Source: Planctomycetota bacterium (GTDB taxonomy: Bacteria > Planctomycetota > UBA8108 > SXIK01). Taken from it: a stretch of DNA of 33,338 nucleotides. Position 1 is the stretch's first letter, and each line of letters starts with the position of its first letter. The position numbers and the translations under genes are program-made. The notes beneath the pieces were generated by a model that ran no database searches, had not been told where the DNA came from, and was given only the letters and a program-made list of their open reading frames with translations. Positions 2,563 through 30,143 of the stretch are shown here, one piece after another. The stretch lies in the NCBI GenBank assembly GCA_016209535.1, contig JACQVW010000113.1:1-33338 (forward strand). The letters run 5' to 3'.

Positions 2563-2991
2563 ATGTTCGAGTTCCTGGACCACACCGCCGACGTCGCCGT
2601 GCGGCTCCGCTCGCGCGACGAGGCGGGTCTGTTCCGCGACGCGATGCGAGCACTCCTCGCGATCGTCCTCGACGAGGAGAGGAGCGCGCCCGTCGAGCCG
2701 CGCGAGGCCCGCGAGGTGCGGCTCGAGGCCGAGGACGCCGAGTCGCTCCTCGTCGACTACTTGAACGAGCTCATCTTCCTCTTCGACACGGCGCGATTCC
2801 TGGCGCGGGACCTGGAGGCCTCCCGGATCGAGCTCGGCCGGCCCGCTCGCCTCGACGGGCGGCTGCTCGGCGAGCGATTCGACCCGGCGCGGCACCTGGC
2901 GAAGACCGAGGTTAAGGCCACGACGTTCCATGGCATGGAGGTCCGGAGGGGGCCGGAGGGGCTCGAGGCCGAGGTCGTGTTCGATCTCTGA
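2563..2991 (+). CDS. Archease (RtcB-ligase activating protein family)
   Basis: 142 aa MFEFLDHTADVAVRLRSRDEAGLFRDAMRALLAIV...ESLLVDYLNELIFLFDT...VKATTFHGMEVRR...VVFDL; archease motifs; directly upstream of rtcB. Confidence 0.92.
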   Translation: MFEFLDHTADVAVRLRSRDEAGLFRDAMRALLAIVLDEERSAPVEPREAREVRLEAEDAESLLVDYLNELIFLFDTARFLARDLEASRIELGRPARLDGRLLGERFDPARHLAKTEVKATTFHGMEVRRGPEGLEAEVVFDL

Positions 2992-2999
2992 GGGAGGCC

Positions 3000-4436
3000 A
3001 TGAAGCTCCAGAAGGTGAACGACTGCTGCTGGCGCATCCCCCGGGAGGGGAAGATGCGGGTCGACGGGATCGTCTTCGCCGACGACGCGCTCATGAAGTC
3101 CATCGAGGAGGACAAGAGCCTCGAGCAGGTCGCGAACGTGGCTTGCCTCCCGGGGATCGTGGGGCACTCGATCGGCATGCCCGACATCCACTGGGGCTAC
3201 GGCTTTCCCATCGGCGGCGTGGCGGGGTTCGACCTGGAGGAGGGCGTGATCTCCCCCGGCGGCGTCGGCTACGACATCAACTGCGGGGTGCGGCTCCTCT
3301 CGACGAACCTCCAGATCGAGGACTGGCGAGGCCGCGTCCCGGACCTCGTCCAGGGCCTGTTCCGCAGGATCCCCACGGGCGTGGGCCACGCGCGGAAGGA
3401 CCTGAAGCTGAACCGCGAGGACTCCTCGAAGATGGCGCGGCGGGGGGCGCGGTGGGCCGTGGAGAGCGGCTTCGGGTCCCAGGAGGACCTCCTGTACATC
3501 GAGGAGGGCGGCTGCCTCGAGGGCGCCGACTTCGACCTCGTGAGCGACCGGGCCTACGAGCGCGGCCGCTCCCAGGTCGGCACCATCGGCTCGGGGAACC
3601 ACTTCGTCGAGGTGGGCTGGGTGGACGAGGTCTACGACGCGGCGCTCGCCGAGCGGATCGGCCTCTTCCCGAACGGCCTCACGGTGATCATCCACACGGG
3701 CTCCCGCGGCTTCGGCTACCAGATCTGCGAGGACTACCTGCGCATCCTGCAGAAGGCCGCGGACCGTTACGGGATCTACCTCCCCGACCGCCAGCTCTGC
3801 TGCGCGCCCTTGAAGAGCGAGGAGGGGAAGCGCTACCTGGCCGCGATGAAGTGCGGCGCGAACTTCGCCTTCGCGAACCGCCAGCTCGTCACGCACTTCG
3901 TCCGGGAGGCCTTCGAAGAGGAGTGGGGCCTCACGCCGAGGGACCATGGCATCGGCGTCGTGTACGACGTCTGCCACAACATCGCGAAGGTCGAGACCCA
4001 CGTGATCGACGGGGAGACCCGCAAGGTGTGCGTGCACCGGAAGGGGGCCACGCGAGCCTTCCCGGCCGGGCACCCTGCGGTGCCCGAGGCGTACCGGGAC
4101 GTGGGGCAGCCGGTGCTGGTGCCCGGCGACATGGGCCGGTACTCCTACGTGCTCGTGGGGAACCCGGCGTCGCCGGGCTACACCTTCGCGAGCTCCTGCC
4201 ACGGGGCCGGCCGCAGGCTGAGCCGCAAGGCAGCCGTGAAGGCGACGCGGGACCGGAACATCGTGAAGGAGCTCGCGGCCCAGGGGATCACCGTGGCCGC
4301 GGCGAGCCGCGCCACCATCGACGAGGAGTTCCCCCAGGCCTACAAGGACGTGGCGGAGGTCGTGGACGTGGTCCACCGGGCGAACCTCGCGATCAAGGTC
4401 GCGCGGCTCCGGCCGGTGGGGGTGATCAAGGGTTGA
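3000..4436 (+). CDS. rtcB: RNA-splicing ligase RtcB
   Basis: 478 aa; PDIHWGYGFPIGGVAGFD, GGVGYDINCGVR (catalytic-site Cys), GTIGSGNHFVEV, IIHTGSRGFGYQ, SSCHGAGRRLSR, C-terminal RLRPVGVIKG. No intein insertion. Confidence 0.97.
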   Translation: MKLQKVNDCCWRIPREGKMRVDGIVFADDALMKSIEEDKSLEQVANVACLPGIVGHSIGMPDIHWGYGFPIGGVAGFDLEEGVISPGGVGYDINCGVRLLSTNLQIEDWRGRVPDLVQGLFRRIPTGVGHARKDLKLNREDSSKMARRGARWAVESGFGSQEDLLYIEEGGCLEGADFDLVSDRAYERGRSQVGTIGSGNHFVEVGWVDEVYDAALAERIGLFPNGLTVIIHTGSRGFGYQICEDYLRILQKAADRYGIYLPDRQLCCAPLKSEEGKRYLAAMKCGANFAFANRQLVTHFVREAFEEEWGLTPRDHGIGVVYDVCHNIAKVETHVIDGETRKVCVHRKGATRAFPAGHPAVPEAYRDVGQPVLVPGDMGRYSYVLVGNPASPGYTFASSCHGAGRRLSRKAAVKATRDRNIVKELAAQGITVAAASRATIDEEFPQAYKDVAEVVDVVHRANLAIKVARLRPVGVIKG

Positions 4437-4462
4437 GGCGCCGGGGAGGGCCTGGCGAGGCC

Positions 4463-5383
4463 ATGGCGAAGCGGAGCGCGCGGAGGAAGGCGATCGACCT
4501 CGTCGGGGTGCCCATCGACTACGGCGCGAACCTGCGCGGGGTCGGCATGGGCCCCACGGCCTTCCGCCTGGCGGGCCTCGCGGAGAATCTCCGGGCCGAG
4601 GGGATCGCGGTGCGCGACCAGGGCGACGTGCCGCTGCCGCCGCCGAGGAAGCGGCCGCCGGGCGACGACTGCCTGCCCGAGATCCGGGCCGTCTGCGCGG
4701 ACCTCGCCCGGCGCGTCGAGCGGGCTCTCGTGGCAGGGCGGATGCCCCTCGTCGTGGGCGGGGACCACTCGATCGCCATCGGGACCGTGGCCGGCGCGAG
4801 CCGGCACTTCCGCGCCCGCGGAGGCCGCATGGGGCTCCTCTGGGTCGACGCCCACGGCGACATGAACAACCCGCGCACTTCGCCCTCGGGGAACATCCAT
4901 GGCATGCCGCTGGCCGTGACCCTCGGGGACGGGATCCCGGTCCTCGTGCGCCTCGGGGGCTTCGCGCCAAAGGTGGACCCGTCGCGGACGGCCCTCGTCG
5001 GCATCCGGAACCTCGACGAGGAGGAGCGCGGGAACATCGCGCGCTTCGGCATCAACGTCTACACCATGAAGGACATCGACCGCCGCGGCATCGCGAGCGT
5101 CATGGACGAGGCGGTCCACGTGGCCTCGAACGGCGCGGACGGAGTCCACGTGAGCTTCGACATGGACGTCGTCGACCCCCAGACGGCCCCCGGCGTCGGC
5201 ACGGCGGTCCCGGGCGGCCTGAGCTACCGTGAGGCGCACCTCGTCATGGAGCTCGTGCACGACGCGGGCGTCATGACGAGCCTCGAGGTGGTGGAGACGA
5301 ACCCCTTCCTCGACGTGAGGAGCCAGACGGCGAAGCTGGGCGTGGAGCTGATCCTGTCGGCGCTGGGGAAGTCGATCTACTGA
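4463..5383 (+). CDS. rocF: Arginase (ureohydrolase family)
   Basis: 306 aa from ATG 4463; GGDHSIAIG, WVDAHGDMNNPRTSPSGNIHGMPLA, VSFDMDVVDPQTAPGVGTAVPGGLSYREA, SLEVVETNPFLD metal-binding motifs. Confidence 0.9.
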   Translation: MAKRSARRKAIDLVGVPIDYGANLRGVGMGPTAFRLAGLAENLRAEGIAVRDQGDVPLPPPRKRPPGDDCLPEIRAVCADLARRVERALVAGRMPLVVGGDHSIAIGTVAGASRHFRARGGRMGLLWVDAHGDMNNPRTSPSGNIHGMPLAVTLGDGIPVLVRLGGFAPKVDPSRTALVGIRNLDEEERGNIARFGINVYTMKDIDRRGIASVMDEAVHVASNGADGVHVSFDMDVVDPQTAPGVGTAVPGGLSYREAHLVMELVHDAGVMTSLEVVETNPFLDVRSQTAKLGVELILSALGKSIY

Positions 5384-6040: not shown

Positions 6041-8506
6041 TCAGACGCCCTCCCTGGCGTCCCGAAGCAGCGCCGCGGCGGAGACGTCCGCCTCGGGCCG
6101 GTAGCCGCGCAGGGGCAGGATGCGCTCGTGGACCGCGTCGAGGATCCAGGACGGCTGCGGAAAGAAGATCTCCTCCAGCTCGGCCGCCGGAGTGATCCAG
6201 TTCCGTGCGCCCACGACGGTGACGGGCGCATCGAGGTCGTCGAAGGCGAGCTCCTGGATGCGCGAGGCGAAGGTGTGGAGGAAGCTCCCGCGCTCGCAGG
6301 CGTCCGAGGCGAGGACGATCCTGCCCGTCTTCCGGACGCTGTCGAGGACGGGCCCGTAGTCGAAGGGGACGAGGCTCCTCGCGTCGATGACCTCGGCGGA
6401 GACCGAGTGCTCCTTCTCGAGCCGCTCCGCGGCCTCCACCGCGCGGTAGAGGGTCGAACCGATGGTCAGGATCGTGAGGTCCTTCCCGGGCCGCTTCACG
6501 TCGGGGAGGCCGATCGGGATCGTGTACTGCCCGGCGGGGACCTCCCGCTGGAACTGCTCCGTCACGCCGTAGACCCTCTGGGACTCGAAGAAGACCACGG
6601 GGTCGTCCCCGCGGAGGGCCGAGGCCATGAGCCCCTTGGCGTCGTAGGGCGTGGCGGGGAAGACGACCTTGAGGCCCGGGACGTGGGCGACGATGGAGCT
6701 CCAGTCCTGCGAGTGCTGCGCCCCGTACTTGCTCCCCACGCTCACGCGCAGGACGACGGGCATGCGCAGGACCCCGGCCGACATGGCCTGCCACTTCGAG
6801 AGCTGGTTGAGGATCTCGTCACCGGCGCGGCCCATGAAGTCGCAGTACATGAGCTCCACGAGGGCGCGGCCGCCCTCCATGGCGTAGCCGACGGCGGTCC
6901 CCACGATGGCCGCCTCGGAGATGGGCGAGTTGAAGAGCCTGTGGTAGGGCAGGCTCTCGGTCATGCCACGGTAGACGGCGAAGGCGCCGTCCCAGTCGCG
7001 GTTCTCCTCGCCGTAGGCGATGAGGCGGCGGTCCTCGTGGAAGCGATGGATGATGGCCTCGAAGAGGGCGTCGCGGAAGGAGACGGCCTTGTTCTCGCCG
7101 AGCTTCTCGCCGGTCCCGGGGTCGATCCCGGAGCGGCTCTTCCTCGCGATGGCCTGCACGCGGCCGTTTTCCTGGAGCGGCTTCAGGACGTCGCCGGCCC
7201 CGATCCCCGGGGGCGTTTCGTTGACCGCGTGGGAGAACATGACCCGCGCGATGGACGGCCCGTCGAGGCGCGGCGACGCGTCGAGGTCCACGGCGAGCCT
7301 GCAGGCCTTCCGCATCTTCGCCTGCGCGTAGGCCTGGAGCCTGTCCAGGTCCGCCTCGGTCCCGGCGCGCGCGTCGAGGATCCGGCCCCGGAGCTCCTGG
7401 ATCGGATCGACGTCCTTCCAGAGCGCCACCTCCTCGCGCGTCCTGTAGGAGCTCGCGTCGCTGGGGGAGTGCCCGCTCTGGCGGTAGGCGATGATCTCGA
7501 GGAGGACCGGCCCTTCGCCCGCGGCGATCGCGTCGAGCTTGCGCCGCATGGCGTCGATGACGGCCAGGGGGTTGTTGCCGTCGACGGTCTCGGCGTGGAG
7601 GTTGAACCGGTTCAAGCCCGCGCCGATTGCCGCGAGGCGCTCGAAGCCCATGGTTTCGCCCCGCGTCTGGCCGCCCATGCCGTAGAAGTTGTTCATGAAG
7701 GCGAAGATGACCGGAAGGCCGCCGCGGTGCTCCGGCCCCCAGAGGGTCCAGAGCTGCCCCATGGTGGCGAAGTTCATGGCCTCCCAGACCGGCCCGCAGC
7801 CCGTCGAGGCGTCGCCGATGTTGGCGACCGCGACCCCCGGCCTCCCGTGGACCCGCTTGTGGAGCGCCGCGCCGGCGGCGATGTCGGCGCTGCCGCCCAC
7901 GATGGCGTTGTTCGGGTAGATCCCGAAGGGCGGGAAGAAGGCGTGCATGGAGCCGCCGAGGCCGCGGTTGAACCCCGTCGAGCGGCCGAAGATCTCGGCC
8001 AGGAGGCCGTAGAGGAGGTAGTCGATGGCGAGCTCCTTCACGCTCCCCGCCGGCTCGCGCTCGACGACGCGGAGGATGTCCCCGCTCAGGTAGCCCTCCA
8101 TGATCTCGAGGAGCTCTCGGTCGCCGAGCTTCTCGATGGCGCTCAAGCCTTTGGCGATGATCTCGCCGTGGCTCCGGTGGCTCCCGAAGATGTGGCTCTC
8201 GGGCCCCAGGAGGAAAGCCTCGCCGGCGGCGGCCGCCTCCTGGCCCACGGAGAGGTGGGCCGGGCCCTTGTGGTCGTAGGCGATCCCCCCGTAGCTCCCG
8301 AGCTTCTTCAGCTCGCCGAGGGCCTCCTCGAGCTCGCGGATGAGGAGCATGTCCCGGTAGAGGCGGAGCGCGTCGTCGCGGGTGAGCCGGCCCGAGGCCA
8401 GCTCGTCCGACAGGCTCTTCCGGTACGCGTTGACGGGGATGGGACGGATCTCGAGGGTCGCGGACCTCCGGACCTCCTCGGGGACGATCGTGAGCTGCTT
8501 GACCAT
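6041..8506 (-). CDS. 2-oxoacid (branched-chain/pyruvate-type) dehydrogenase E1, fused alpha-beta subunits
   Basis: 821 aa; N-terminal E1-alpha ([16 protein letters not shown], ...[17 protein letters not shown]... ThDP region, [10 protein letters not shown]), C-terminal E1-beta ([47 protein letters not shown]). Confidence 0.92.
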
Positions 8507-8592
8507 GTCTCGCGGTGGGTGCTTTCGGGCGTGGGATTGCGGGCGAAACTCCGTAGTTTAGGCAGCGAGGCGCCGGGCAGGAAACGAAAAAG

Positions 8593-8720
8593 GGCGTGGT
8601 TCAGATCAGGCTCCATTCGGGTAACAGGAAAGAGCTCAGCAGGGGCAGTTTGGTAGGGGCAGTATCGTGGGAATGAATGCGTGGTTCATGGCCGGGTGTA
8701 ACCCGGCGTTGAACCACGCC
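8593..8720. mobile_element. MITE-like non-autonomous element: 11-bp perfect TIRs (GGCGTGGTTCA 8593-8603 / TGAACCACGCC 8710-8720), flanked by exact 8-bp direct repeats CGAAAAAG (8585-8592 and 8721-8728)
   Basis: Read directly: ...gaaaCGAAAAAG|GGCGTGGTTCA...TGAACCACGCC|CGAAAAAGgggtg.... No convincing ORF inside; intergenic. Confidence 0.75.
8679..8719. repeat. Strong hairpin inside the right end of the 8593-8720 element
   Basis: GCGTGGTTCA-TG-GCCGGGT-GTA-ACCCGGC-GT-TGAACCACGC: perfect 10-bp and 7-bp stems separated by a 2x2 internal mismatch, 3-nt loop. The left arm is an extra copy of the TIR. Confidence 0.9.
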
Positions 8721-8750
8721 CGAAAAAGGGGTGTCGTCAAACGATCTCGA

Positions 8751-9311
8751 TCACGCGCGCCCCTTGCTCTCACCCAGGACCAGGGCCTGGCCGATCAAGT
8801 GGGCGATCCGGATCCCCTCGGGCACCTTCGAGCGGCCGCGGCTCTGCTCGAGGACCTCGCGGGCGGCCTCGGGGCCCAGGCCGGCGCACGCGAAGACGAG
8901 CTCGCCGAAGCGGTGGAAGGGGCCGGCCGCCTCCACGGCGGAGACCCGGTCGTCCCAGCCGAGCTTCCGTAGAGTCGCCTCGAGCCGCCCCGGCGCGGGG
9001 AGCCTGCGGTCCACCGAGATCACGCCGAGGCCCGTCGACCGCGCCAGGAGGGGGAGGTCGATCACCGAGAGGCCGGCGATGGTGAGGCCCTCGACGAGCA
9101 CGACCCGCAGGCTCCTCGCGAACCGGCACCGGGCGATCCAGTCGGCCAGGCGCCCGGTCACTCCGGCGCCGTCCACGGGGAGGCGCGTGGCCAGGACGCC
9201 CTCCACGAGGCCCGCGCCGGCCATCACGACGCCGACGGCCCAGGTCTCCCGGTCCCGGAACTTGTCGAAGGGCGCATCGTCGATCGCGAGGGTGTGGAGC
9301 CGGCGCTTCAC
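8751..9311 (-). CDS. DUF99 / UPF0215 family protein (endonuclease dU-like family)
   Basis: 186 aa, GTG start; TLAIDDAPFD, VGVVMAGAGLVEGVL, VVLVEGLTIAGLSVIDLPLLARSTGLGVISVDR, EGIRIAHLIGQALVLGESKGRA match the DUF99 pattern. Confidence 0.8.
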   Translation of the reverse strand: MKRRLHTLAIDDAPFDKFRDRETWAVGVVMAGAGLVEGVLATRLPVDGAGVTGRLADWIARCRFARSLRVVLVEGLTIAGLSVIDLPLLARSTGLGVISVDRRLPAPGRLEATLRKLGWDDRVSAVEAAGPFHRFGELVFACAGLGPEAAREVLEQSRGRSKVPEGIRIAHLIGQALVLGESKGRA

Positions 9312-19148: not shown

Positions 19149-21410
19149 TCACCTCCCCGTCAGCCTCCCGACCCGCTCGATCTCGCCCTTGAGGAAAGCC
19201 ATGTCCGTGAAAGGCTGGGCGCTCGCGCGGCTCCAGCGGATCCCGCCGTCGCGGTCGATGAAGAAGAGGCCGTGGAGGGCCAGGTCCTCGAACGTGTCGT
19301 GGGCGCCGTAGGCCTTCGCGACCGCGCGGCCCGGGTCCTGGAGGAGCGGGTAGTAGATCGCGGCCCCCTTCGGGCTCGCGCGGAGCTCGCGGGCCTTCTC
19401 GGGCGGGTCCTCGGAGACGGCGAGGACCTGGACCTCGAGCTTCTCGAAGGCCTCCTTCTCCTTCCCGAGCAGGACGAGCTGGTCCACGCAGTGCGCGCAG
19501 GCTCCGCCGAGGAAGAACGCGATGACGAGGCGCTTCCCGCGGAGGCTCGAGAGCCTCACCCGGAAGCCGTCCTGGGCCGCGAGGTCGAAGTCGGGGGCCG
19601 GGCTCGGGGCCCAGAAGCGCGGGCCCGAGGGCAGGAGGCGCCCGGCGTCTTCGGAGAGCACCGCGGGGCCGGCGGACGCGCCGCCGCCCGAGCCCTGGAG
19701 GAGGCCCGCCGCGCTCACGAGGAGGGCGGCCCGCGCCGGGGGCTCGCGCGAGACGACGTTGATGCCCAGCGCCTCGAGGCGCCTCCGGCAGGCGAGGTCC
19801 CGGTCGGCGCGCGCCGCGGCCGCGTGGAACCGGGCGTAGGCCTCGACCGCCTCGGCCGCCTTCCCGCCGCGCCAGCAGGCCTCGACGAGCCCGGCGAGGG
19901 ACGGCAGCGTGTCGTGGCGGACCTCGAGGAGCCCCCGGAAGCAAGCCTCGGCGAGGCCCCAGTCCCGCGCCTCGAGGTGCGCGAGCCCGACGGACTCGAG
20001 GAAGGGCCGCGGGTACCCGGCGAGGTCGTGCCGGAGCTTCTCGACCTGGAGCTTCGCGCCCTTCGCGAGGAGGTCGAAGCCCTCGAGGAGCCTCCCCTCG
20101 GACACCGCGAGCCTGCCCTTGAGCTCGAGCCGCGCCGTCTCGATCAGGTCCGGCGCGCCGCCGGCCTTCTTCGCGGCCTCGCCGGCCAGCGCGTCGAGCC
20201 TCGCCGCCTCCCCGGCGGCCCTGGCCCGATCCCCCTTCCCGAGGTGAGCGAAGCCCCGGCCGTAGGCGGCCCACGCCGCCTCCTCGGGCCCATCGGACCA
20301 CTCGAGGTGCTCCCCGCCGAGGATCTCGTCCCAGCGCTCGTAGCGGAGGAGCACGCGGAGGAGCGAGATGCGCCCGAGCCTCTGGGCGCCGTCGTTTCCG
20401 GGATCGCGCGGCGTCTCGACGAGGTTCCGCGAGAAGGCGATCCCGTCCGAGACGGCGCCCGTGTGCGCGATGTTGGCGATGAGGTAGTGCTGGTTGTGCG
20501 CGTAGTTGTGGATCTGGAACGGCAAGACCCGGTGCTCGAGCATGTGGGCGTGGTCGACGCGGGCCGATCCCTCCTGCTGGTAGACGGCGTCGTGCCAGCG
20601 CGAGAGGCCGTTGTAGATGTGCCCCGGCATGTGCCAGGCGTGGGCGATCCCCGGGGCCGCCTTGTGGTAGAGCTCGGCGGACCTCACGGCCTGGGCCGGG
20701 TCCCGGTGGTCCCAGAGGTGGATGCGGTAGTGGTGCGCCCCGGGATGCATGGGCGACTTCCGCAGCACCTCCTCGATGAGCGCGTCCAGGGCCACGTGGC
20801 TCGAGATCTTGTCGCCCGACCAGCTCCCGCCGATCACGGCCCAGGCGAGGAAGGCCTTGGCCTCGATGTCGTCGGGGTAGGCGAGGACCACGGCCTCGAG
20901 CCCCCGGATGTAGTCCGCCCGCCGGTCGGCGTCGCTCTTGCCCTCGGCGTGGTAGGCCTCGAGGGCTTCGATGTGCCTTCGCTCGCGGTCCGTGGCCTTC
21001 TCCATGCGCTCCCGGGCCCTCGCGAGAAAGGCGCGAGCGCGCCCCGAGCTGTTCGCGTTCGACATGGCCATGCCCCAGAGCGCCATGGCGCAGGCGGGGT
21101 CGTGGAACAGCGCCTCGCGGAAGGAGCGCTCGGACTCGAAGTAGCAGAAAGTGTGGAGCTGGGCCACGCCTTGCTCGAAGAACGCCTGGGCGTCGGGGCT
21201 CGGCGTCGTCACCGGGAACCGCACCTCGCCCACGCCCGCCATGCGCCCGGCGCGCTGCCGCGGACCCTCGTCGAAGGCCTCGCCGTGGACCGAGTGGCCG
21301 GGCGGGACGGGAGGCCGGTCCTGGGCCGGGACGGGCATGGAGGTTGCAACGATCCAGCAGACGGCGCAGAAGACGATGACGGCGGCGGGCCCTGTGCTTC
21401 GAGGCGGCAT
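19149..21410 (-). CDS. Exported TPR protein fused to a C-terminal AhpC/TSA (peroxiredoxin/thioredoxin-fold) domain
   Basis: 753 aa from MPPRSTGPAAVIVFCAVCWIVATSMPVPAQ (signal peptide); TPR-like N-terminal part with HPGAHHYRIHLWD, AWHMPGHIYNGLSRW, NYAHNQHYLIANIAH; C-terminal DFDLAAQDGFRVRLSSLRGKRLVIAFFLGGACAHCVDQL...VLAVSEDPPE...FIDRDGGIRW. Confidence 0.85.
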   Translation of the reverse strand: MPPRSTGPAAVIVFCAVCWIVATSMPVPAQDRPPVPPGHSVHGEAFDEGPRQRAGRMAGVGEVRFPVTTPSPDAQAFFEQGVAQLHTFCYFESERSFREALFHDPACAMALWGMAMSNANSSGRARAFLARARERMEKATDRERRHIEALEAYHAEGKSDADRRADYIRGLEAVVLAYPDDIEAKAFLAWAVIGGSWSGDKISSHVALDALIEEVLRKSPMHPGAHHYRIHLWDHRDPAQAVRSAELYHKAAPGIAHAWHMPGHIYNGLSRWHDAVYQQEGSARVDHAHMLEHRVLPFQIHNYAHNQHYLIANIAHTGAVSDGIAFSRNLVETPRDPGNDGAQRLGRISLLRVLLRYERWDEILGGEHLEWSDGPEEAAWAAYGRGFAHLGKGDRARAAGEAARLDALAGEAAKKAGGAPDLIETARLELKGRLAVSEGRLLEGFDLLAKGAKLQVEKLRHDLAGYPRPFLESVGLAHLEARDWGLAEACFRGLLEVRHDTLPSLAGLVEACWRGGKAAEAVEAYARFHAAAARADRDLACRRRLEALGINVVSREPPARAALLVSAAGLLQGSGGGASAGPAVLSEDAGRLLPSGPRFWAPSPAPDFDLAAQDGFRVRLSSLRGKRLVIAFFLGGACAHCVDQLVLLGKEKEAFEKLEVQVLAVSEDPPEKARELRASPKGAAIYYPLLQDPGRAVAKAYGAHDTFEDLALHGLFFIDRDGGIRWSRASAQPFTDMAFLKGEIERVGRLTGR

Positions 21411-21532
21411 GCGTGCGGACTTCCTTGGCTCGTGGGACCTTGCGGAAGGCAGGACCTCGATCATAGCAAGGCGGGGCGGCGGGCGCGGGAACTTTTCGCC
21501 GGCCGGGCCGTCGAAGGGGCCCTTCCCTTCGG

Positions 21533-21538
21533 TACAAT
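21533..21538 (+). promoter_or_regulatory. Candidate -10 box TACAAT for the giant gene, with a 13-bp inverted repeat GAAGGGGCCCTTC (21513-21525) just upstream
   Basis: TACAAT 41 nt before the ATG; inverted repeat GAAGGG-G-CCCTTC in the spacer region; no clear -35. Confidence 0.4.
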
Positions 21539-21578
21539 GTTCGGCCGGCAAGTGAAAGTGAAGCAGAAGGAGGCGACG

Positions 21579-24500
21579 ATGCGGCGCAGGATCGCGGCCC
21601 TGGCGGCGGGCGTGTGGGCGGCGGCGGCTCTCGAGGGCACGGTGGGCACGGGGGGCACGGCGGCCAGGGCTCCTGCGGCTCAGGAGAGCCTCGCGGACGA
21701 CCCCTCGCCGGGCCACCTGGCCGACCGCGAGGGCGCGGTCTTCGTGAGGCCCATCCTCTCGCCCCGCTGGGCTCCGGCCGGCGAGGGCGACCCGATCGAG
21801 GCGGGAGCCTGGCTCAAGACCGCGGCCCGCGGCGCGAACGCCGCCGAGGTGCGGCTCGCGGACGGCACGCGGCTCGTGCTCGGGCCCGCAGGGCTCCTGG
21901 AGCTAACGGCGCCGGGGTCCCTGCGGCTCGACGAGGGCGAGCTCTCGGTGGAGCCCGCGCCCGGCTCGAAGGTCGCGGTGGCCGGGCCGGGCGGGGCCCG
22001 CGAAGAGGTGGCGGCGGCTCGCGTGCTCCGCGCCCGCGACGGGAGGCTCGCGCCCATCGACGAGCCCGCCTGGCTCAAGGGCTACCGCGAGAAGTCGAGC
22101 ACCGAGGCCATGGGGTCCCTCCTCGCCACCGTGGACGGGCGCGACGTGCCGCTGTCGCTCGGCTACCACAAGGTGACGGTCGACATCCGCGACCAGATCA
22201 GCCGCACCCAGGTCGAGGAGTCGTTCCAGAACCACACGGACTCGGTCCTCGAGGGCGTCTTCTACTTCCCCCTGCCCCAGGACGCGTCGATCTCGGGCTT
22301 CGCCATGTGGATCGGCGACGAGCTGGTCGAGGCGGACGTCGTGGAGAAGGAGCGGGCCCGGGCGATCTACGAGACGATCCTCGCCGAGAGGCGCGACCCG
22401 GGCCTCCTCGAGTGGACCGGCGGCAACGTCTTCAAGGCCCGCGTCTACCCGATCCCGGCGGGCGGCGAGAAGCGGATCCGGATCACCTACACCCAGGTCC
22501 TGCCCAAGGAGGGCAGCGCCTACCGCTACACCTACGCCCTCCAGAGCGAGATGCTGCGCCTGAAGCCGCTCCGGGAGCTGCGGATCGAGGTCAAGATCGC
22601 CTCGGAGGAGCCGATCGCCTCGGTCCGCTGCCCGTCGCATCCGGCCCGCGTGCGCGCCACGGAGCACGCGGCGCAGGTCGAGGTCGAGGCGCAGGAGTAC
22701 CGGCCCTCGCGGGACCTCGAGGTCCTGGTGGAGACGCGGCCCCAGGCGAAGGCCGTCCTCGTCTCGCACCGGCGCGCCGACGAGGGCTACTTCATGGCCC
22801 TCGTCTCGGCCGACGCCCTCATGGGTCGCGAGCGCGGCGCGGCGGGGAGGGACCCGGGGGCGGCGCGGCCCCTCGACCTCGTGATCGTCGCCGACACGTC
22901 GGCCTCCATGAGCGACGTGCAGCTCCGCGAGCAGAGGGCCTTCGTCGCGAGCCTCCTCGAGAGCCTCGGGGACCGCGACCGCTTCCAGCTCCTCGCCTTC
23001 GACGTGGAGACCGCGTGGCTCTCGGACGAGCCCCTCCCGGGAGGCTCCGGGAACGCGGCCCGGGCCCTCGCGTTCCTCGAGGCCCGGGGCGCCCTGGGCT
23101 GGACGGACCTCGAGCGCGCCTTCCGCGAGGCCCTGTCGCGGGCCTCGCGGGACTCGCACGTGGTGTACGTGGGGGACGGCATCCCGGGGAAGGGCGACGC
23201 GGACCCGGCGGCGCTTGCCCAGGCCTTGAAGGGGCTCCACGCCGGGCGCGGGACGTGCCACGCCGTGGCCCCGGGGAGCACCTTCGAGAGCCTGGTCCTG
23301 AAATCGATCGCGTCCCTCGGCGGGGGCTCCCTGCACCGCGTGGGCGGCGGGAAGGACGCTGGCGAGGCCGCCGGAGACCTCCTGCGCGAGATGACCTCGA
23401 GCGCGCTCGTGGACCTGCGCCTCGAGTGGCGCGGCGTGCGCGTGGCGCGCGTCTACCCCGAGGAGCTGCCCAACCTGCCGGCGGGAGGGCAGCAGGTGGT
23501 CCTCGGCCGGTACCTGCCCGAGCCGGGGGAGACTCGGGGGACGCTCGTGGTGAGGGCGTCGCTCGGCGTGTTGCCCATCGCGGCCGAAGTCCCCGCCGCC
23601 TTCGCCGGCGAGGGGGAGGGGAACTCGTTCGTGCCGCGCCTCTGGGCGCGCCTCCACCTCGACCATCTCCTGGAGCAGGCCCAGACCCCCGAGGTCAAAG
23701 ACCGGGTCATCGCCCTGTCCGAGGAGCTCCAGATCATCACGCCCTACACCTCGCTCCTCGTCCTCGAGTCCGACGCCGACCGCGAGCGCTTCCAGGTGCG
23801 GAAGGGCTTCCGCATGCGGGGCGGCGAGGAGTTCTTCGCCGAGGGTCGGGCGGGCGCGCAGCTCGACCTCGCGCGCGAGCAGTCCCAGCTCGCGCGGCGC
23901 TGGAGGCAGGACCTGCGGCGCCGCGTGCTCGAGCGCTACGCGCGGCTGGGGATCGAGCCGGAACGGGAGGTCGTGCCGGCCTTCTTCTACAAGGCCCGCG
24001 GGGCCGGCGCGCAGCGCTGGGCGGCGACGGCGCTCGAGCGCGAGGGCACGAAGTTGCGGGTGGCCCTGGACGATCTCACGCCGGGCACGGCGGCGCCGGC
24101 CACCGTCGCTCCTGGGGACCTGAATTCTGACGCGCTGGCCTTCGACGAGGTCGCAACGGCGGGGGCGGAGGAGGCTGAGGCCGACCAAGACGAGAAGCCG
24201 CCGGACGGCGCTGAGGAGTACTTCGGGAAGGAGGACGCGGCCGCCCAGCCCTTCGCGGAGATGGCGAAGGCGGCCGAGGCTCCGGCGCAGCTCCGCCTGA
24301 GGAACGCCCTGGCGGACACGAGAGCCTTGCGGCAAGAGAGGCTCGGCCGGCGGCTGGACGCGCGGCTCGCGTTCGGAGACGTGCCGGAGCTGGGCGCCCT
24401 CTTCTACGGCGCCGGGCTGCGGCCGAGGCCGTCGCCGCCCTTCGGCGGCCTTTTCCTCGAGCCCGGGAGCCCGACCCCGCCTCGGGAGCCCGCCTGGCCT

Positions 24501-27500
24501 GCCGAGGTCCGCGAGGTGACGGGCCTCCTGGACCGGCGGGCGGTGATCGCGGGCCTCGCGGGGGGCCTCAAGGTCACCGTGGAGGCCGAGTCGACCGGCC
24601 GCCGGGGCCGCGCGCGGCCCGCGTCGGCGGCGGAGCACCTGCTCTCGCGCGAGGCCTGGGCCGCGGCCGTCCAGAGCTCGCCCGAGTCGGCGCCGCGCCT
24701 CGAGTGGACGCGGGCGGGCCGGCGCGGGGCCCTGGACCCGGCGCGGGGCCTGGGCTCGAGCCGCGCCGGCGCCGAAGCGGACCGGACCGACTTCCCGGCG
24801 CCGTACGACCTCCACTTCGCGGACCTCGAGGCGGGCTACGGGCACTACGTGCCGAGCGTGACCCGCGGCGGGGCGCGGGCGGTCCTGAGGCTCGTCGCGA
24901 AGGACGACCCGGGGAGCACCGCCGAGGTCGTCGTGGACCTCGAGAGGCGCGCCGTCCTCGAGGTCTCGGCGCTCCAGGACGGGAAGCTTCGCTCGCGCAC
25001 GACGTTCCTGGACCACGTCCAGGTCCTCGGCGCCTGGTGGCCCTCGAGGCTCGAGACCCGCGACGGCGAGGGCAAGCTCCTCCGGGCCGTGAAGCTCGCC
25101 CACGAGGCGCTCGCCCCCGAGGCCTTCGCCGCCGCGCTGGACCGCGCCCTGGCGCCCGCCGCCGAGGCCACGATGCTCGAGCTGCCCCTCCCCGGGCTCG
25201 TCGACGCGCGCCAGCGCGCCCTCGACGGCAAGGCGGCGCTCGCAGATCGCTGGGTCCTCCTGAACCACTTCGCCGCGACCCAGCGCTGGGACCGCGCGGC
25301 CGAGGAGCTCCGGAGCTTCGAGGCCCTGGCGGCCCAGAGGAGAGGGCTCGCCTGGGTGCGGCTCTCCTTCCTCCAGGCCTCGAGGCGGCTCGAGGAGGCG
25401 AAGGCGGTGGTCCTCGACCTCTCGAGCGGCGTTGCGGCGGGCTCGAGGCCCGGCGACCTCGCCCTCGCCCTGGCGCTCCTCGGGGCCGCGAGCGGCTCCC
25501 TGGGCCCGAGCGAGCGGCAGGACCTCCTCGCGGCCCTCGAGCCCGTCTTCGAGCGGCAGCCCCCGGGGCTCGAGGCCCCGAAGCGCTTCGAGCGGGAGCG
25601 CCTGGACGTCCTCCGCGGCCTCGGCCGGCACGAGGACGCGCGGCGCCTCCTCGAGGAGCTCGCCCTGCGCAGCGCCGATGACCTCGAGCTCCAGATCGAG
25701 TGGGCCCGGGATCTCGAGGGCCGGGGCGAGACGGACCGCGCCGTGGCGCACCTCGACGGGGCCCTCGCGAGGTCCGGCCCCTGGACGCCCGAGGAGGAGG
25801 CGCGGCTCCGCTCCACGGCGGCGTTCCTGCTCTACGACCGCCGGAGGCTGCCCGAGTACCTGGACCGCGCCGGCCGCTGGCTCGATGAAGGGCCGTCCCA
25901 CGTCGGAGATGACGTCGCGAGCCGGCTCCTCTCGGCCCACGTGCTCCTCGACCGCGAGGCCGACGCGGACCGGCTCATCGAGGCCTGGCTCTCGAGGGGG
26001 CCCGAGCCGGGCCTGGGCGCCCGCTGGAACCGGACGTCGGCGGACGGCGCGCGCTTCCAGGCCGCGCTCCACCACGCGCTCGGCTCGGGCCACGAGCTCC
26101 ACGCGCGCCGCATCGACCCGAGGTGGAGGCCGAGGCTCGCGGAGCTCGTCCTCGCCTGCGCCCGGGACCCGGCCCTCGGCTGGATCCCCGGGAGCATCGT
26201 GGGCGACCACCGCTTCCACCGGACCGACGAGGGCCGCGAGGCGATGGCGAGGCTCCACGGGATCCTGGCGGCGGAGGCGGACTCGCTGGCGCCGCAGGCC
26301 GTCGTGAGCATCCTCGAGTGGACGGCGGGCCGCGCGCCGCGCGAGGGCGAGCCCTCGCGGGAGGACATCGCCCGGAAGCTCCTCGCCCGCTGGGAGCGCG
26401 AGGTCGACCCGGGGTCGAGGGCCCTCCTGGGCCAGGCCATCGCCGGGTCGGGCGGCCCCAAGCTGCTCCTCGCCCTCCGGCGCCTCGAGCTCGAGCACGC
26501 GACGGGCCCGGAGGAGAAGGCCCGGGCCGCATGGAACCTCTTCCACCTCCTGGGCTCTCGACCCTGGAGCGCCGAGGCCGAGGCGGAGGTCCTGGGGCTC
26601 TTCGATCGCCTCGGGAGCCCCCAGCTCCAGGCCGCCGCGGCGCCCGTCCTCGCCGTCTACGCGAGCGAGTCGCGGGGCGCGAGGGAGGTGGAGGCCATCC
26701 CGGACCGCTCGAAGCTCCCGCGCCGCCAGCTCCGGCCGCTCGAGGCAGCGGCGCGCCGGAGGGCGCGCGAGGCGGCGGTCGAGACCCTGAGGAAGCTCGA
26801 GGCGTCGGGCCTCGCCCTCGCGGTCGTGCCGTTCGTCAAGGTCGAGCGCTTGACCCTCGAGGCGCGCCGGCCGAAGGAGCCGGCCCGCGTCTCGAAGGAT
26901 CTGCGCGAGCTCTTCGAGGGGGTCCCGATGCGGAACGTCGAGGATCCACTGGACGGAGCGCGCGACGCGCTGGCCCGGCGCGCCCTCGTCACGGCGGCCT
27001 ACGTCGCCACGCTCCCGGGCTCCGAGGCGAGCCTCGCGGGCGCTCTCCTCGAGCTCCTCGTCGGCCTCATCGCGCGCCGCGAGGCCGAGGAGGAGGCGCG
27101 GATCGACGCGCGGGAGGAGAAGCGCGACCTCCTCGTGGCCCTGGACCGGCCCGCGGACCTCGAGGCCGCGCTCGAGGCCTGGGCCGCCGAGGCGGGCGAC
27201 GCCGCCGGCGACCGCTTCCGCGTCGCCCGGGGCCACGTCCTCGCCGAGCTGGGCAGCCTGGCCGATGCGGTCCGGGCCTTCGAGGCGGTCGCTGCGCGCG
27301 ACGCCCTGGGCGCCGCCGACTGGAGGGCCCTCGCCGGCTGGCACCTCGCCCTCGGGGACAAGGCGAAGCACCGCGACGCCCGGGTGCGCGCCCACGAGGC
27401 CGAGGGCGAGTGGCAGGTGCACAACGCCCTCCAGCGAGACCTCCACCGCTACCAGCGCCGCGGCGACGCGGTGCCCGAGGAGCTCGACGAGGATGTTTTC

Positions 27501-30143
27501 CTCCGCCTGGCCGCGCTCTTCCGCAAGGCCACGAGCCCCGGGCACCACCTCTGGATCCTCCGCGCCTACTACGAGGCGACGAAGGACTTCCGGCTCCTCG
27601 AGTCGACCGCCGACGCCGTCGTGGGCCAGACCACGGAGAAGGTCTACGGGTGCCTGCAGGGCCTCGGCCAGGTCCTCGAGCTCGTGGGGGACGAGGCCAC
27701 GTGCGACCGCCTCGTGAGGCGGCTCGGGGAGCTCGTCCCCACGGCGACCCCGGCGGACCGGCGCGCCCTCCGGCTCCTCGATCTCCTCGTGGAGAGGCGC
27801 GCCGCGGACCAGCAGAACGGCGGCGGCCCCCACGCGCAGGCGGCGCTCGAGGCGATGCGCTCCGCCTTTCAGGAGGCATGGCGCGAGGGCGAGCTGGCCC
27901 TCATGGCGGGCTTCCTGGCACAGCTCGGGAAGGTCGTCGAGCCCCTCCGCTCGGAGCAGATCCGGGAGCTCCGGTTGCTCCACGACCTGGCGGCGGCGGG
28001 GAGCGAAGAGCGGTTCGCCGTGGCCCGGCACCGGGCCGCAGCGCTCCACGCCGGCGGGCAGCGGGAGGACGCCGTGCAGGTCCTCGGCGGCGCCCTCGGC
28101 GAGCACGCGCAGGCCCGCGGAGGCCTGCTCCCGCCGACCGCGAGCGGCGCCCTCGAGACGTACGTCGGCTACCTCACCGAGGGGGGGGAGCTCCGCGCCG
28201 CCGAGAGGATCCTCCGGCGCGAGCTGACCCTGGGACACAACCTCGACTTGAAGCGCTGGCTCGAGCTCGAGCTCTTCGAGCTCATGGTCCAGGCCGTCGA
28301 GCGCGGCCAGGCCCTCTCCTCGGGCCGCGGGGCGGACCTCTACGCCGCCGCGCGGCGCGAGATGCTCGAGGCCCTCGAGCGCTCCGGCGGCGAGGGGCAC
28401 GCCCAGAGCGTGTCGAGCCACATCCGGGGGCTCTTCCGGGCGGCGCACGCGAAGAAGGTGGCCGGAGCCGGCGACGACCTCCGCGTCTTCGCCTTCCAGG
28501 ACGTGCCCCGGGTGCTGCGGACCTACGCCTACAGGAACGGCCAGGGCCTCGTCTCGAATGTGGCGCACGCCGTGCGGGACGTGCTCGGACGGAGGGAGGC
28601 CGTGGCCTTCCTCGTGGCGAGAGCCGAGGGGGAGCCGCGGTGGCTCGAGCGCCAGGGCCAGGACTTCTGGCCCCAGCACGCCTACCGGCTCGGCGAATGG
28701 GCCCTGGAGGTGAAGGGGAGGCTCGGCGAGCTCGAGCCGCGCGTCCTGGCCATCGCCCTCGCGGCGCTCCGGGAGGACCTCCTGGAGGGCGAGGCGCGGA
28801 CCCGCGTCCTCTACGACAAGCGCCACGGGCGCTTCTGGCCCGAGAAGGCCGAGGACTTCCGCCGCGCGGCCCTCGAGGCCCTCGAGGCGCGGCGCCAGTC
28901 CGAGGCGGGCTCGATGCACATCGCCGAGTACCTCTTCCGCGGCCTCGAGCGGCGGTCCGACTCCATCGACGCCCTCGCGCGCTTCTACCGCGCCCGCGGC
29001 CTCGGCGATGGCGGGCAGTGGCAGCTCGCGGGGTACCTCGCCGAGGCGGGGCGGCACGCCGAGGCGGTGCCTCTCCTCGAGGGCCTGATCGCCCGGCACC
29101 CTGAGAGCCTCGAGCACCGCGCCGCCCTCTGCCGCGCGTACCACAAGCTCGCGCAGCGCGAGAAGCTCGCGGCGGCCCTCGACGCGGCCGACGAGCACTT
29201 CCGCGCCGAGGGCCTCTGGCACGAGGGCCACGCGGCGGGGCTCGGCAACCTCTGCCTCGAGGTGGCGCATCCCGATCGGGCGGTGGAGTACCTCCGTGAG
29301 GCCGCGCGCATGCACGAGAAGTCGGCCCCGAACCGGGGCGTGGGGGACGGCGTCCTCTCGAGCTACTACGTCTCGCTCGCCCAGGCCCTCTCGGGCCTCG
29401 GCCGCACGAAGGAGGCCGTCGACGCCGCGGCGGGGGCCGTCGTGAGCTGGGGCCGCCGCGCCGATGGGCGCGCCCAGGCCCTCGAGTCGCTGCTCCAGGT
29501 CCTCCGCGCGGCGAAGGACCTCGGCGCTTACGAGGCGTCCTTCGAGGCGGAGGTCGCGGCGGCGCGCCTCGAGAACCCGACGATCCGGAAGGCCCTCGGG
29601 CGCGTCCATCTCGAGCGCAAGAGCTTCGCGAGGGCCGCGAGGCACCTCGAGGCCGCCGTGGAGCACGGTCCCGCCGATCCCGAGGCGGAGCGGAAGCTCA
29701 TCGAGGCCTTCGACGGGCTCGGCGACCCGGCCCGCGCCTCGGCGCGCGTCCTGGCCCTCGCCGGGAAGAAGGAGCGCGACTTCGGCCTCTTCAAGGAGCT
29801 GGGGGACCGGCTCGCGGCCCAGGGCAAGGCCACTGACGCCGAGCGCGCGTACTGCGCGCTCGCCGAGCTGTCGGCCAACGAGTCCGAGGGCCGGGCGCTC
29901 CTCGCCGAGCTGCGGGAGGGCCAGGCCCGCTTCGGCGAGGCCGCCGCCGAGTGGCGCCAGGTCGTGCGCGTGCGGTCGCGGGAGCCCGGCGGGTACGTGG
30001 GCCTCGGCCGGGCGCTCCTCGGGGCGGGCCGTCCCGCCGAGGCGCGCGAGGCCCTCGAGCGCGTCCTTCGCGAGTCGTGGCACCCGCGCTTCGGCGACGT
30101 GCACGCCGAGGCGCGGAAGCTGGTCCAGAGGCTCCAGCGGTGA
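21579..30143 (+). CDS. Giant exported protein: signal peptide, FecR-like region, VIT domain, VWA domain with MIDAS, long TPR/alpha-solenoid
   Basis: 2854 aa; RBS aaGGAGGcgacgATG. FecR-like EGDPIEAGAWLKTAARGANAAEVRLADGTRLVLGPAGLLEL; VIT VPLSLGYHKVTVDIRDQISRTQVEESFQNHTDSVLEGVFYFPLPQDASISGFAMWIGDELVEADVVEKERARAIYETI; VWA DLVIVADTSASMSD; ITPYTSLLVLESD; C-terminal TPR-like repeats to the end. Confidence 0.92.
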   Translation: MRRRIAALAAGVWAAAALEGTVGTGGTAARAPAAQESLADDPSPGHLADREGAVFVRPILSPRWAPAGEGDPIEAGAWLKTAARGANAAEVRLADGTRLVLGPAGLLELTAPGSLRLDEGELSVEPAPGSKVAVAGPGGAREEVAAARVLRARDGRLAPIDEPAWLKGYREKSSTEAMGSLLATVDGRDVPLSLGYHKVTVDIRDQISRTQVEESFQNHTDSVLEGVFYFPLPQDASISGFAMWIGDELVEADVVEKERARAIYETILAERRDPGLLEWTGGNVFKARVYPIPAGGEKRIRITYTQVLPKEGSAYRYTYALQSEMLRLKPLRELRIEVKIASEEPIASVRCPSHPARVRATEHAAQVEVEAQEYRPSRDLEVLVETRPQAKAVLVSHRRADEGYFMALVSADALMGRERGAAGRDPGAARPLDLVIVADTSASMSDVQLREQRAFVASLLESLGDRDRFQLLAFDVETAWLSDEPLPGGSGNAARALAFLEARGALGWTDLERAFREALSRASRDSHVVYVGDGIPGKGDADPAALAQALKGLHAGRGTCHAVAPGSTFESLVLKSIASLGGGSLHRVGGGKDAGEAAGDLLREMTSSALVDLRLEWRGVRVARVYPEELPNLPAGGQQVVLGRYLPEPGETRGTLVVRASLGVLPIAAEVPAAFAGEGEGNSFVPRLWARLHLDHLLEQAQTPEVKDRVIALSEELQIITPYTSLLVLESDADRERFQVRKGFRMRGGEEFFAEGRAGAQLDLAREQSQLARRWRQDLRRRVLERYARLGIEPEREVVPAFFYKARGAGAQRWAATALEREGTKLRVALDDLTPGTAAPATVAPGDLNSDALAFDEVATAGAEEAEADQDEKPPDGAEEYFGKEDAAAQPFAEMAKAAEAPAQLRLRNALADTRALRQERLGRRLDARLAFGDVPELGALFYGAGLRPRPSPPFGGLFLEPGSPTPPREPAWPAEVREVTGLLDRRAVIAGLAGGLKVTVEAESTGRRGRARPASAAEHLLSREAWAAAVQSSPESAPRLEWTRAGRRGALDPARGLGSSRAGAEADRTDFPAPYDLHFADLEAGYGHYVPSVTRGGARAVLRLVAKDDPGSTAEVVVDLERRAVLEVSALQDGKLRSRTTFLDHVQVLGAWWPSRLETRDGEGKLLRAVKLAHEALAPEAFAAALDRALAPAAEATMLELPLPGLVDARQRALDGKAALADRWVLLNHFAATQRWDRAAEELRSFEALAAQRRGLAWVRLSFLQASRRLEEAKAVVLDLSSGVAAGSRPGDLALALALLGAASGSLGPSERQDLLAALEPVFERQPPGLEAPKRFERERLDVLRGLGRHEDARRLLEELALRSADDLELQIEWARDLEGRGETDRAVAHLDGALARSGPWTPEEEARLRSTAAFLLYDRRRLPEYLDRAGRWLDEGPSHVGDDVASRLLSAHVLLDREADADRLIEAWLSRGPEPGLGARWNRTSADGARFQAALHHALGSGHELHARRIDPRWRPRLAELVLACARDPALGWIPGSIVGDHRFHRTDEGREAMARLHGILAAEADSLAPQAVVSILEWTAGRAPREGEPSREDIARKLLARWEREVDPGSRALLGQAIAGSGGPKLLLALRRLELEHATGPEEKARAAWNLFHLLGSRPWSAEAEAEVLGLFDRLGSPQLQAAAAPVLAVYASESRGAREVEAIPDRSKLPRRQLRPLEAAARRRAREAAVETLRKLEASGLALAVVPFVKVERLTLEARRPKEPARVSKDLRELFEGVPMRNVEDPLDGARDALARRALVTAAYVATLPGSEASLAGALLELLVGLIARREAEEEARIDAREEKRDLLVALDRPADLEAALEAWAAEAGDAAGDRFRVARGHVLAELGSLADAVRAFEAVAARDALGAADWRALAGWHLALGDKAKHRDARVRAHEAEGEWQVHNALQRDLHRYQRRGDAVPEELDEDVFLRLAALFRKATSPGHHLWILRAYYEATKDFRLLESTADAVVGQTTEKVYGCLQGLGQVLELVGDEATCDRLVRRLGELVPTATPADRRALRLLDLLVERRAADQQNGGGPHAQAALEAMRSAFQEAWREGELALMAGFLAQLGKVVEPLRSEQIRELRLLHDLAAAGSEERFAVARHRAAALHAGGQREDAVQVLGGALGEHAQARGGLLPPTASGALETYVGYLTEGGELRAAERILRRELTLGHNLDLKRWLELELFELMVQAVERGQALSSGRGADLYAAARREMLEALERSGGEGHAQSVSSHIRGLFRAAHAKKVAGAGDDLRVFAFQDVPRVLRTYAYRNGQGLVSNVAHAVRDVLGRREAVAFLVARAEGEPRWLERQGQDFWPQHAYRLGEWALEVKGRLGELEPRVLAIALAALREDLLEGEARTRVLYDKRHGRFWPEKAEDFRRAALEALEARRQSEAGSMHIAEYLFRGLERRSDSIDALARFYRARGLGDGGQWQLAGYLAEAGRHAEAVPLLEGLIARHPESLEHRAALCRAYHKLAQREKLAAALDAADEHFRAEGLWHEGHAAGLGNLCLEVAHPDRAVEYLREAARMHEKSAPNRGVGDGVLSSYYVSLAQALSGLGRTKEAVDAAAGAVVSWGRRADGRAQALESLLQVLRAAKDLGAYEASFEAEVAAARLENPTIRKALGRVHLERKSFARAARHLEAAVEHGPADPEAERKLIEAFDGLGDPARASARVLALAGKKERDFGLFKELGDRLAAQGKATDAERAYCALAELSANESEGRALLAELREGQARFGEAAAEWRQVVRVRSREPGGYVGLGRALLGAGRPAEAREALERVLRESWHPRFGDVHAEARKLVQRLQR

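Follow-up and report, generated by a model that had tools for sequence, protein, structure and literature searches.

A modular family of short MITE-like elements with 8-bp target-site duplications in a Planctomycetota genome

Background

The prokaryotic MITEs already described include Chunjie from Geobacter uraniireducens and QMITE1 and QMITE2 from Coxiella burnetii. Elements with common ends can differ considerably in size, from 178 to 235 bp for Chunjie and from 39 to 400 bp for QMITE1 (PMC10969869). RUP, from Streptococcus pneumoniae, is 107 bp long and present in 108 copies. It has ends in common with IS630-Spn1 and is thought to be mobilised in trans by an IS transposase (PMC2229807). A further group, the REP/BIME palindromes, is found with RAYT transposases (PMC2817692).

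The family described here resembles Chunjie and the QMITEs in that its members are short, carry no transposase, have inverted ends and flanking direct repeats, occur in tens of copies and are mainly intergenic. It differs from them in its ends and core, in carrying a hairpin module either at one end or at both, and in its 8-bp target (consensus SNWWWWNS). The 128-bp element from which the analysis started is similar to RUP in size and copy number but generates an 8-bp duplication, and no IS partner was found for it. As with REP/BIME, the family includes high-copy, extragenic, GC-rich palindromes, both solo and in composite arrangements. Unlike REP/BIME, these palindromes have exact inverted-repeat ends and flanking 8-bp duplications, features that point to a DDE transposase.

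Results and discussion

The element and its surroundings

The window (the whole stretch of DNA analysed) comprises 33,338 nucleotides of contig JACQVW010000113.1 from a Planctomycetota bacterium (assembly GCA_016209535.1). The MITE-like element, as read from the sequence and from alignment, occupies 128 bp at positions 8593-8720. It lies inside an intergenic gap of 244 bp. The genes on either side, both on the minus strand, encode a fused E1 dehydrogenase (6041-8506) and Endo_dU (8751-9311; Pfam PF01949, since renamed from the DUF99 of the sequence-only reading). The layout of positions 8585-8728 is CGAAAAAG, GGCGTGGTTCA, the interior, TGAACCACGCC and CGAAAAAG. The left 11-bp terminal inverted repeat (TIR) is GGCGTGGTTCA (8593-8603, plus strand). 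The right TIR (8710-8720, minus strand), which reads TGAACCACGCC on the plus strand, is its exact complement. The two 8-bp target-site duplications (8585-8592 and 8721-8728, without strand) match exactly.

The core (8604-8678, plus strand) contains no transposase gene: according to the ORF list, the frames that cross the element are GC-rich background frames anchored in the adjoining DNA. It includes two near-identical 14-bp repeats, AGGGGCAGTTTGGT and AGGGGCAGTATCGT (8641-8668, plus strand). A structure search identifies a 41-nt hairpin at the right end (8679-8719, plus strand), with 19-nt arms that are 89% complementary and a 3-nt loop. Folded as DNA it has a predicted energy of -24.8 kcal/mol (z -3.8), and as RNA a z of about -3.5. 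Its 5' arm, GCGTGGTTCA (8679-8688, plus strand), repeats the terminal sequence a third time inside the element, with one mismatch over 8678-8688. Copies of the element average 59% GC and their flanks 68%, and the description of the element as less GC-rich than its surroundings is therefore right.

The sequence-only reading had proposed a 'textbook' MITE with perfect 11-bp TIRs, an exact 8-bp duplication and no transposase in this intergenic gap. The boundaries, re-read, are all exact, and both the location and the identification as a MITE stand. The anatomy was understated, since the element has one hairpin end and is one of several tiers in a modular family. The hairpin, the third terminal-repeat copy and the related size classes are new.

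Some other features of the window were recorded. A 12-bp exact inverted match (8523-8534 with 8714-8725, TTTCGGGCGTGG and CCACGCCCGAAA) connects the region upstream of E1 with the right edge of the element and its duplication; it is possibly a chance match or the remnant of an older element. A 3623-codon open frame at 19272-30143 (plus strand; boundaries as for the predicted frame) has VIT, VWA and TPR domains. The last 290 residues of an 817-codon open frame at 2930-5383 (plus strand) match arginase; the first 520, which gave no NCBIfam match, may reflect either a fusion or an extension of the frame into non-coding DNA upstream.

Number, age and placement of copies

The source genome is a draft of 9.1 Mb in 906 contigs, 80% complete. 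A pattern search with the left 22 bases of the element found left ends at 83 places (control, 0). Right ends are about as frequent, and many of them fall at the ends of contigs. A DNA search of the genome yielded at least 40 copies among the matches listed, plus two hairpin self-matches. Scaling from 80 contigs taken by number (0.74 Mb) gives an estimate of about 85-110 copies per 9.1 Mb. The same 0.74 Mb contain five TIR-plus-duplication pairs with the real TIR and none with three scrambled TIRs. Exact GGCGTGGTTCA occurs 270 times in the source genome, compared with 4 times for the reversed control. About one tenth of the sampled contig ends in the draft assembly can be attributed to this superfamily.

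Forty-four complete, oriented 128-bp copies were compared. Mean substitution from the consensus is 2.5% and mean pairwise identity 95.3%; eight of the 44 are identical to the consensus. Per-site divergence is 2.5% in the left TIR, 3.2% in the core and only 0.6% in the right TIR, the lowest of these segments. The 128-bp copies are young and their spread is recent. A crude, GC3-based test could be applied to 25 insertion sites, and coding-like sequence spans five of them; for random sites the figure is 85%. Insertion, or survival after insertion, is therefore strongly biased towards intergenic DNA.

At four loci (L010, L037, L194 and L208) one terminal repeat is followed by another about 17 bases further on, which suggests that copies already present have repeatedly received insertions in their left end. 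A second, unrelated contig-end repeat occurs at the right end of L209 (TTTCGCTGGGCCGACGCTAGTCTGCGTAACTTTTAGCATTTCTATCTTCGCCCTA) and at the left ends of L215 and L273.

Target-site duplications and target preference

An exact 8-bp duplication flanks 30 of the 44 copies, and in six more the two flanks differ by one mismatch. Among the eight outside both groups, two (L020 and L035) have 7-bp repeats in their flanks and six have no duplication whatever; these last could result from recombination between copies or from misassembly. With the local base composition, 0.002 exact 8-bp flanking repeats would be expected by chance in 44 copies, and the observed pattern is far beyond this. Over bases 1-8 the flanks agree with each other at a level of 0.82-0.93 per base; from base 9 outward agreement falls to background (0.41 or less).

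The wider family, including the size classes described below, provides 66 elements. Exact 8-bp duplications flank 42 of them; all 42 sequences are different and none reaches 9 bp. Thus the proposal that the element transposed with an 8-bp target duplication, and that further copies with different flanks should exist, is borne out by the genome. The fraction of A or T in the 42 duplications is 0.17, 0.48, 0.61 and 0.76 at successive positions and is then mirrored. The target consensus, SNWWWWNS, is symmetric, with G or C outermost on both sides and an A/T-rich middle.

A nested copy provides an empty site. At L002, a 128-bp copy is inserted within a 43-bp palindrome. Removing the copy together with one GGTTCTTG leaves GGCGTGGTTCTGAACCGCGTGATCGCGGTTCTTGAACCACGCC, an uninterrupted palindrome that matches the intact palindromes at L212, L215, L210 and L260. 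The host palindrome is itself flanked by an 8-bp duplication with one mismatch (GGAGTCTC and GGAGCCTC). The intact repeat and one intact 8-bp target are restored when the nested copy is taken out, which makes this an empty site of the paralogous kind; the earlier interpretation had called for orthologous ones.

Related elements of other sizes

Elements with common ends and the same duplication length fall into size classes of 43, 86, 128, 143-158 and 163-203 bp. The 86-, 143- and 158-bp elements are insertion or deletion variants resembling the 128-bp type. Elements of 163, 164, 195 and 197 bp have exact duplications and two different palindromes, one at each end. A 203-bp element (duplication with one mismatch) has at one side a left end of the 128-bp type followed by a palindrome and carries a palindrome at the opposite side. 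Solo 43-bp palindromes also occur; exact duplications flank five of them, and duplications with one mismatch flank another three. The hairpin modules therefore vary between subfamilies and also stand alone with their own 8-bp duplications. At the right end of L198, a tandemly repeated GC-rich unit (CCGTCCCCTCGGGGGGACCGAGGGGGGAAAGCA) is similar to a stretch of core sequence in the 163-203-bp elements.

One tentative and rather doubtful interpretation is that each 43-bp palindrome is a minimal transposable unit sufficient in itself, composed of little beyond two transposase-binding ends back to back, and that pairs of them capture and mobilise the DNA between them to give the 163-203-bp elements as 'composite MITEs', much as two IS copies form a composite transposon. 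Short elements alone are not new, because QMITE1 elements down to 39 bp are on record (PMC10969869).

Search for a mobilising transposase

IS families that generate 8-bp duplications include ISL3, IS1595, IS256, IS1, IS6 and IS66. Searches of the source genome with the ISL3 (PF01610), IS1595 (PF12762) and IS256 (PF00872) transposases gave no match. A search with DDE_Tnp_1 identified two proteins, at L134 and L135. Neither is retained as an autonomous partner: that at L135 is IS1634-like and has its own, different ends, while that at L134 is IS4-like and has no GGCGTGGTTCA pair around it. We also scanned 1.5 Mb of sequence for TIR-plus-8-bp pairs 0.5-6 kb apart, together with four scrambled controls. 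The six matches obtained, each with 4-6 end mismatches, were treated as due to chance since the controls gave 0-3 each. Clustering of contig ends showed no further repeat with these ends, and a literature search with the first ten bases of the terminal repeat listed no relevant title.

No autonomous element with GGCGTGGTTCA ends was therefore found in this incomplete draft using four transposase families and TIR-pair scans, and the initial caution in assigning a mobilising IS family still holds. Fragmented draft assemblies readily lose multicopy IS sequence, and this absence is therefore weak evidence. It nevertheless bears on the strongest alternative, that the element is the decayed remnant of one full-length IS, generated by internal deletion, in which the hairpin is a subterminal structure of the IS rather than a product of modular assembly from small palindromes. 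Many prokaryotic MITEs are regarded as IS derivatives and such an origin is quite possible, if not quite probable, here. Apart from the lack of a candidate parent, it must accommodate hairpin modules that differ between subfamilies and occur alone with their own duplications. This alternative departs from our preferred explanation only in the origin of the element and not in its movement.

Distribution in the phylum

Within the same class, exact GGCGTGGTTCA is clearly raised, apart from the source genome, only in G007 (31 occurrences, compared with 1 for the control), which belongs to a different family of the same order. In the G007 elements, too, one end forms a hairpin; the outer repeats are similar and the core is different. 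Two of them (L155 and L186) have 8-bp flanking repeats with one mismatch. The hairpin signature occurs 201 times in the source genome and 10 times in G007. Among 393 genomes of the phylum, just two others (G005 and G357) match it, with one half-match each, and no element is visible at either. The signature is otherwise essentially absent from these 393 genomes. A search of viral contigs gave no match.

Mode of transposition

The element is almost certainly a non-autonomous MITE that was inserted with an 8-bp staggered cut and belongs to a modular, probably co-mobilised family. It is short, has TIRs and no transposase, and is accompanied by dispersed near-identical copies, duplications of constant length and a paralogous empty site. 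A constant 8-bp duplication, exact inverted ends and a symmetric target preference fit transposition by a trans-acting DDE transposase. Such an enzyme would most likely recognise the 11-bp ends GGCGTGGTTCA and insert the element at a staggered cut 8 bp wide, and gap repair would then produce the duplication. We infer that one enzyme serves all size tiers: the same activity would move the 128-bp elements with one hairpin end, the 163-203-bp elements with two different hairpin ends and the solo 43-bp palindromes.

One alternative is an extragenic palindrome of the REP/REPIN kind, mobilised by a REP-associated Y1 tyrosine transposase that recognises the hairpin. High copy number, intergenic position and a GC-rich terminal hairpin at one side would fit it as well. 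Y1 transposition of single strands is not known to generate target duplications, and the 8-bp duplications of most copies, together with perfect outer inverted repeats on both sides, make this explanation very improbable. It is just as hard to credit that the element is a regulatory sequence or functional RNA (a terminator, a riboswitch or a small-RNA gene) duplicated for its function: the hairpin is stable and the copies favour intergenic DNA, but a search of Rfam gave no match up to E = 1, neither terminator-like nor promoter-like sites were found (the hairpin is accordingly rejected as a terminator), the distribution is sporadic and confined to two genomes of the order, and exact 8-bp duplications occur at unrelated sequences.

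Conclusions

The MITE family described here, probably mobilised by a DDE transposase, is a new family of a known kind and is well proven as such, with an unusually clear modular series. The results document that a MITE superfamily has recently spread in a burst restricted to its lineage. The size series is useful for asking what minimal length of substrate a transposase needs and how MITEs grow and shrink, and the 43-bp palindromes, which have duplications of their own, deserve to be followed up.
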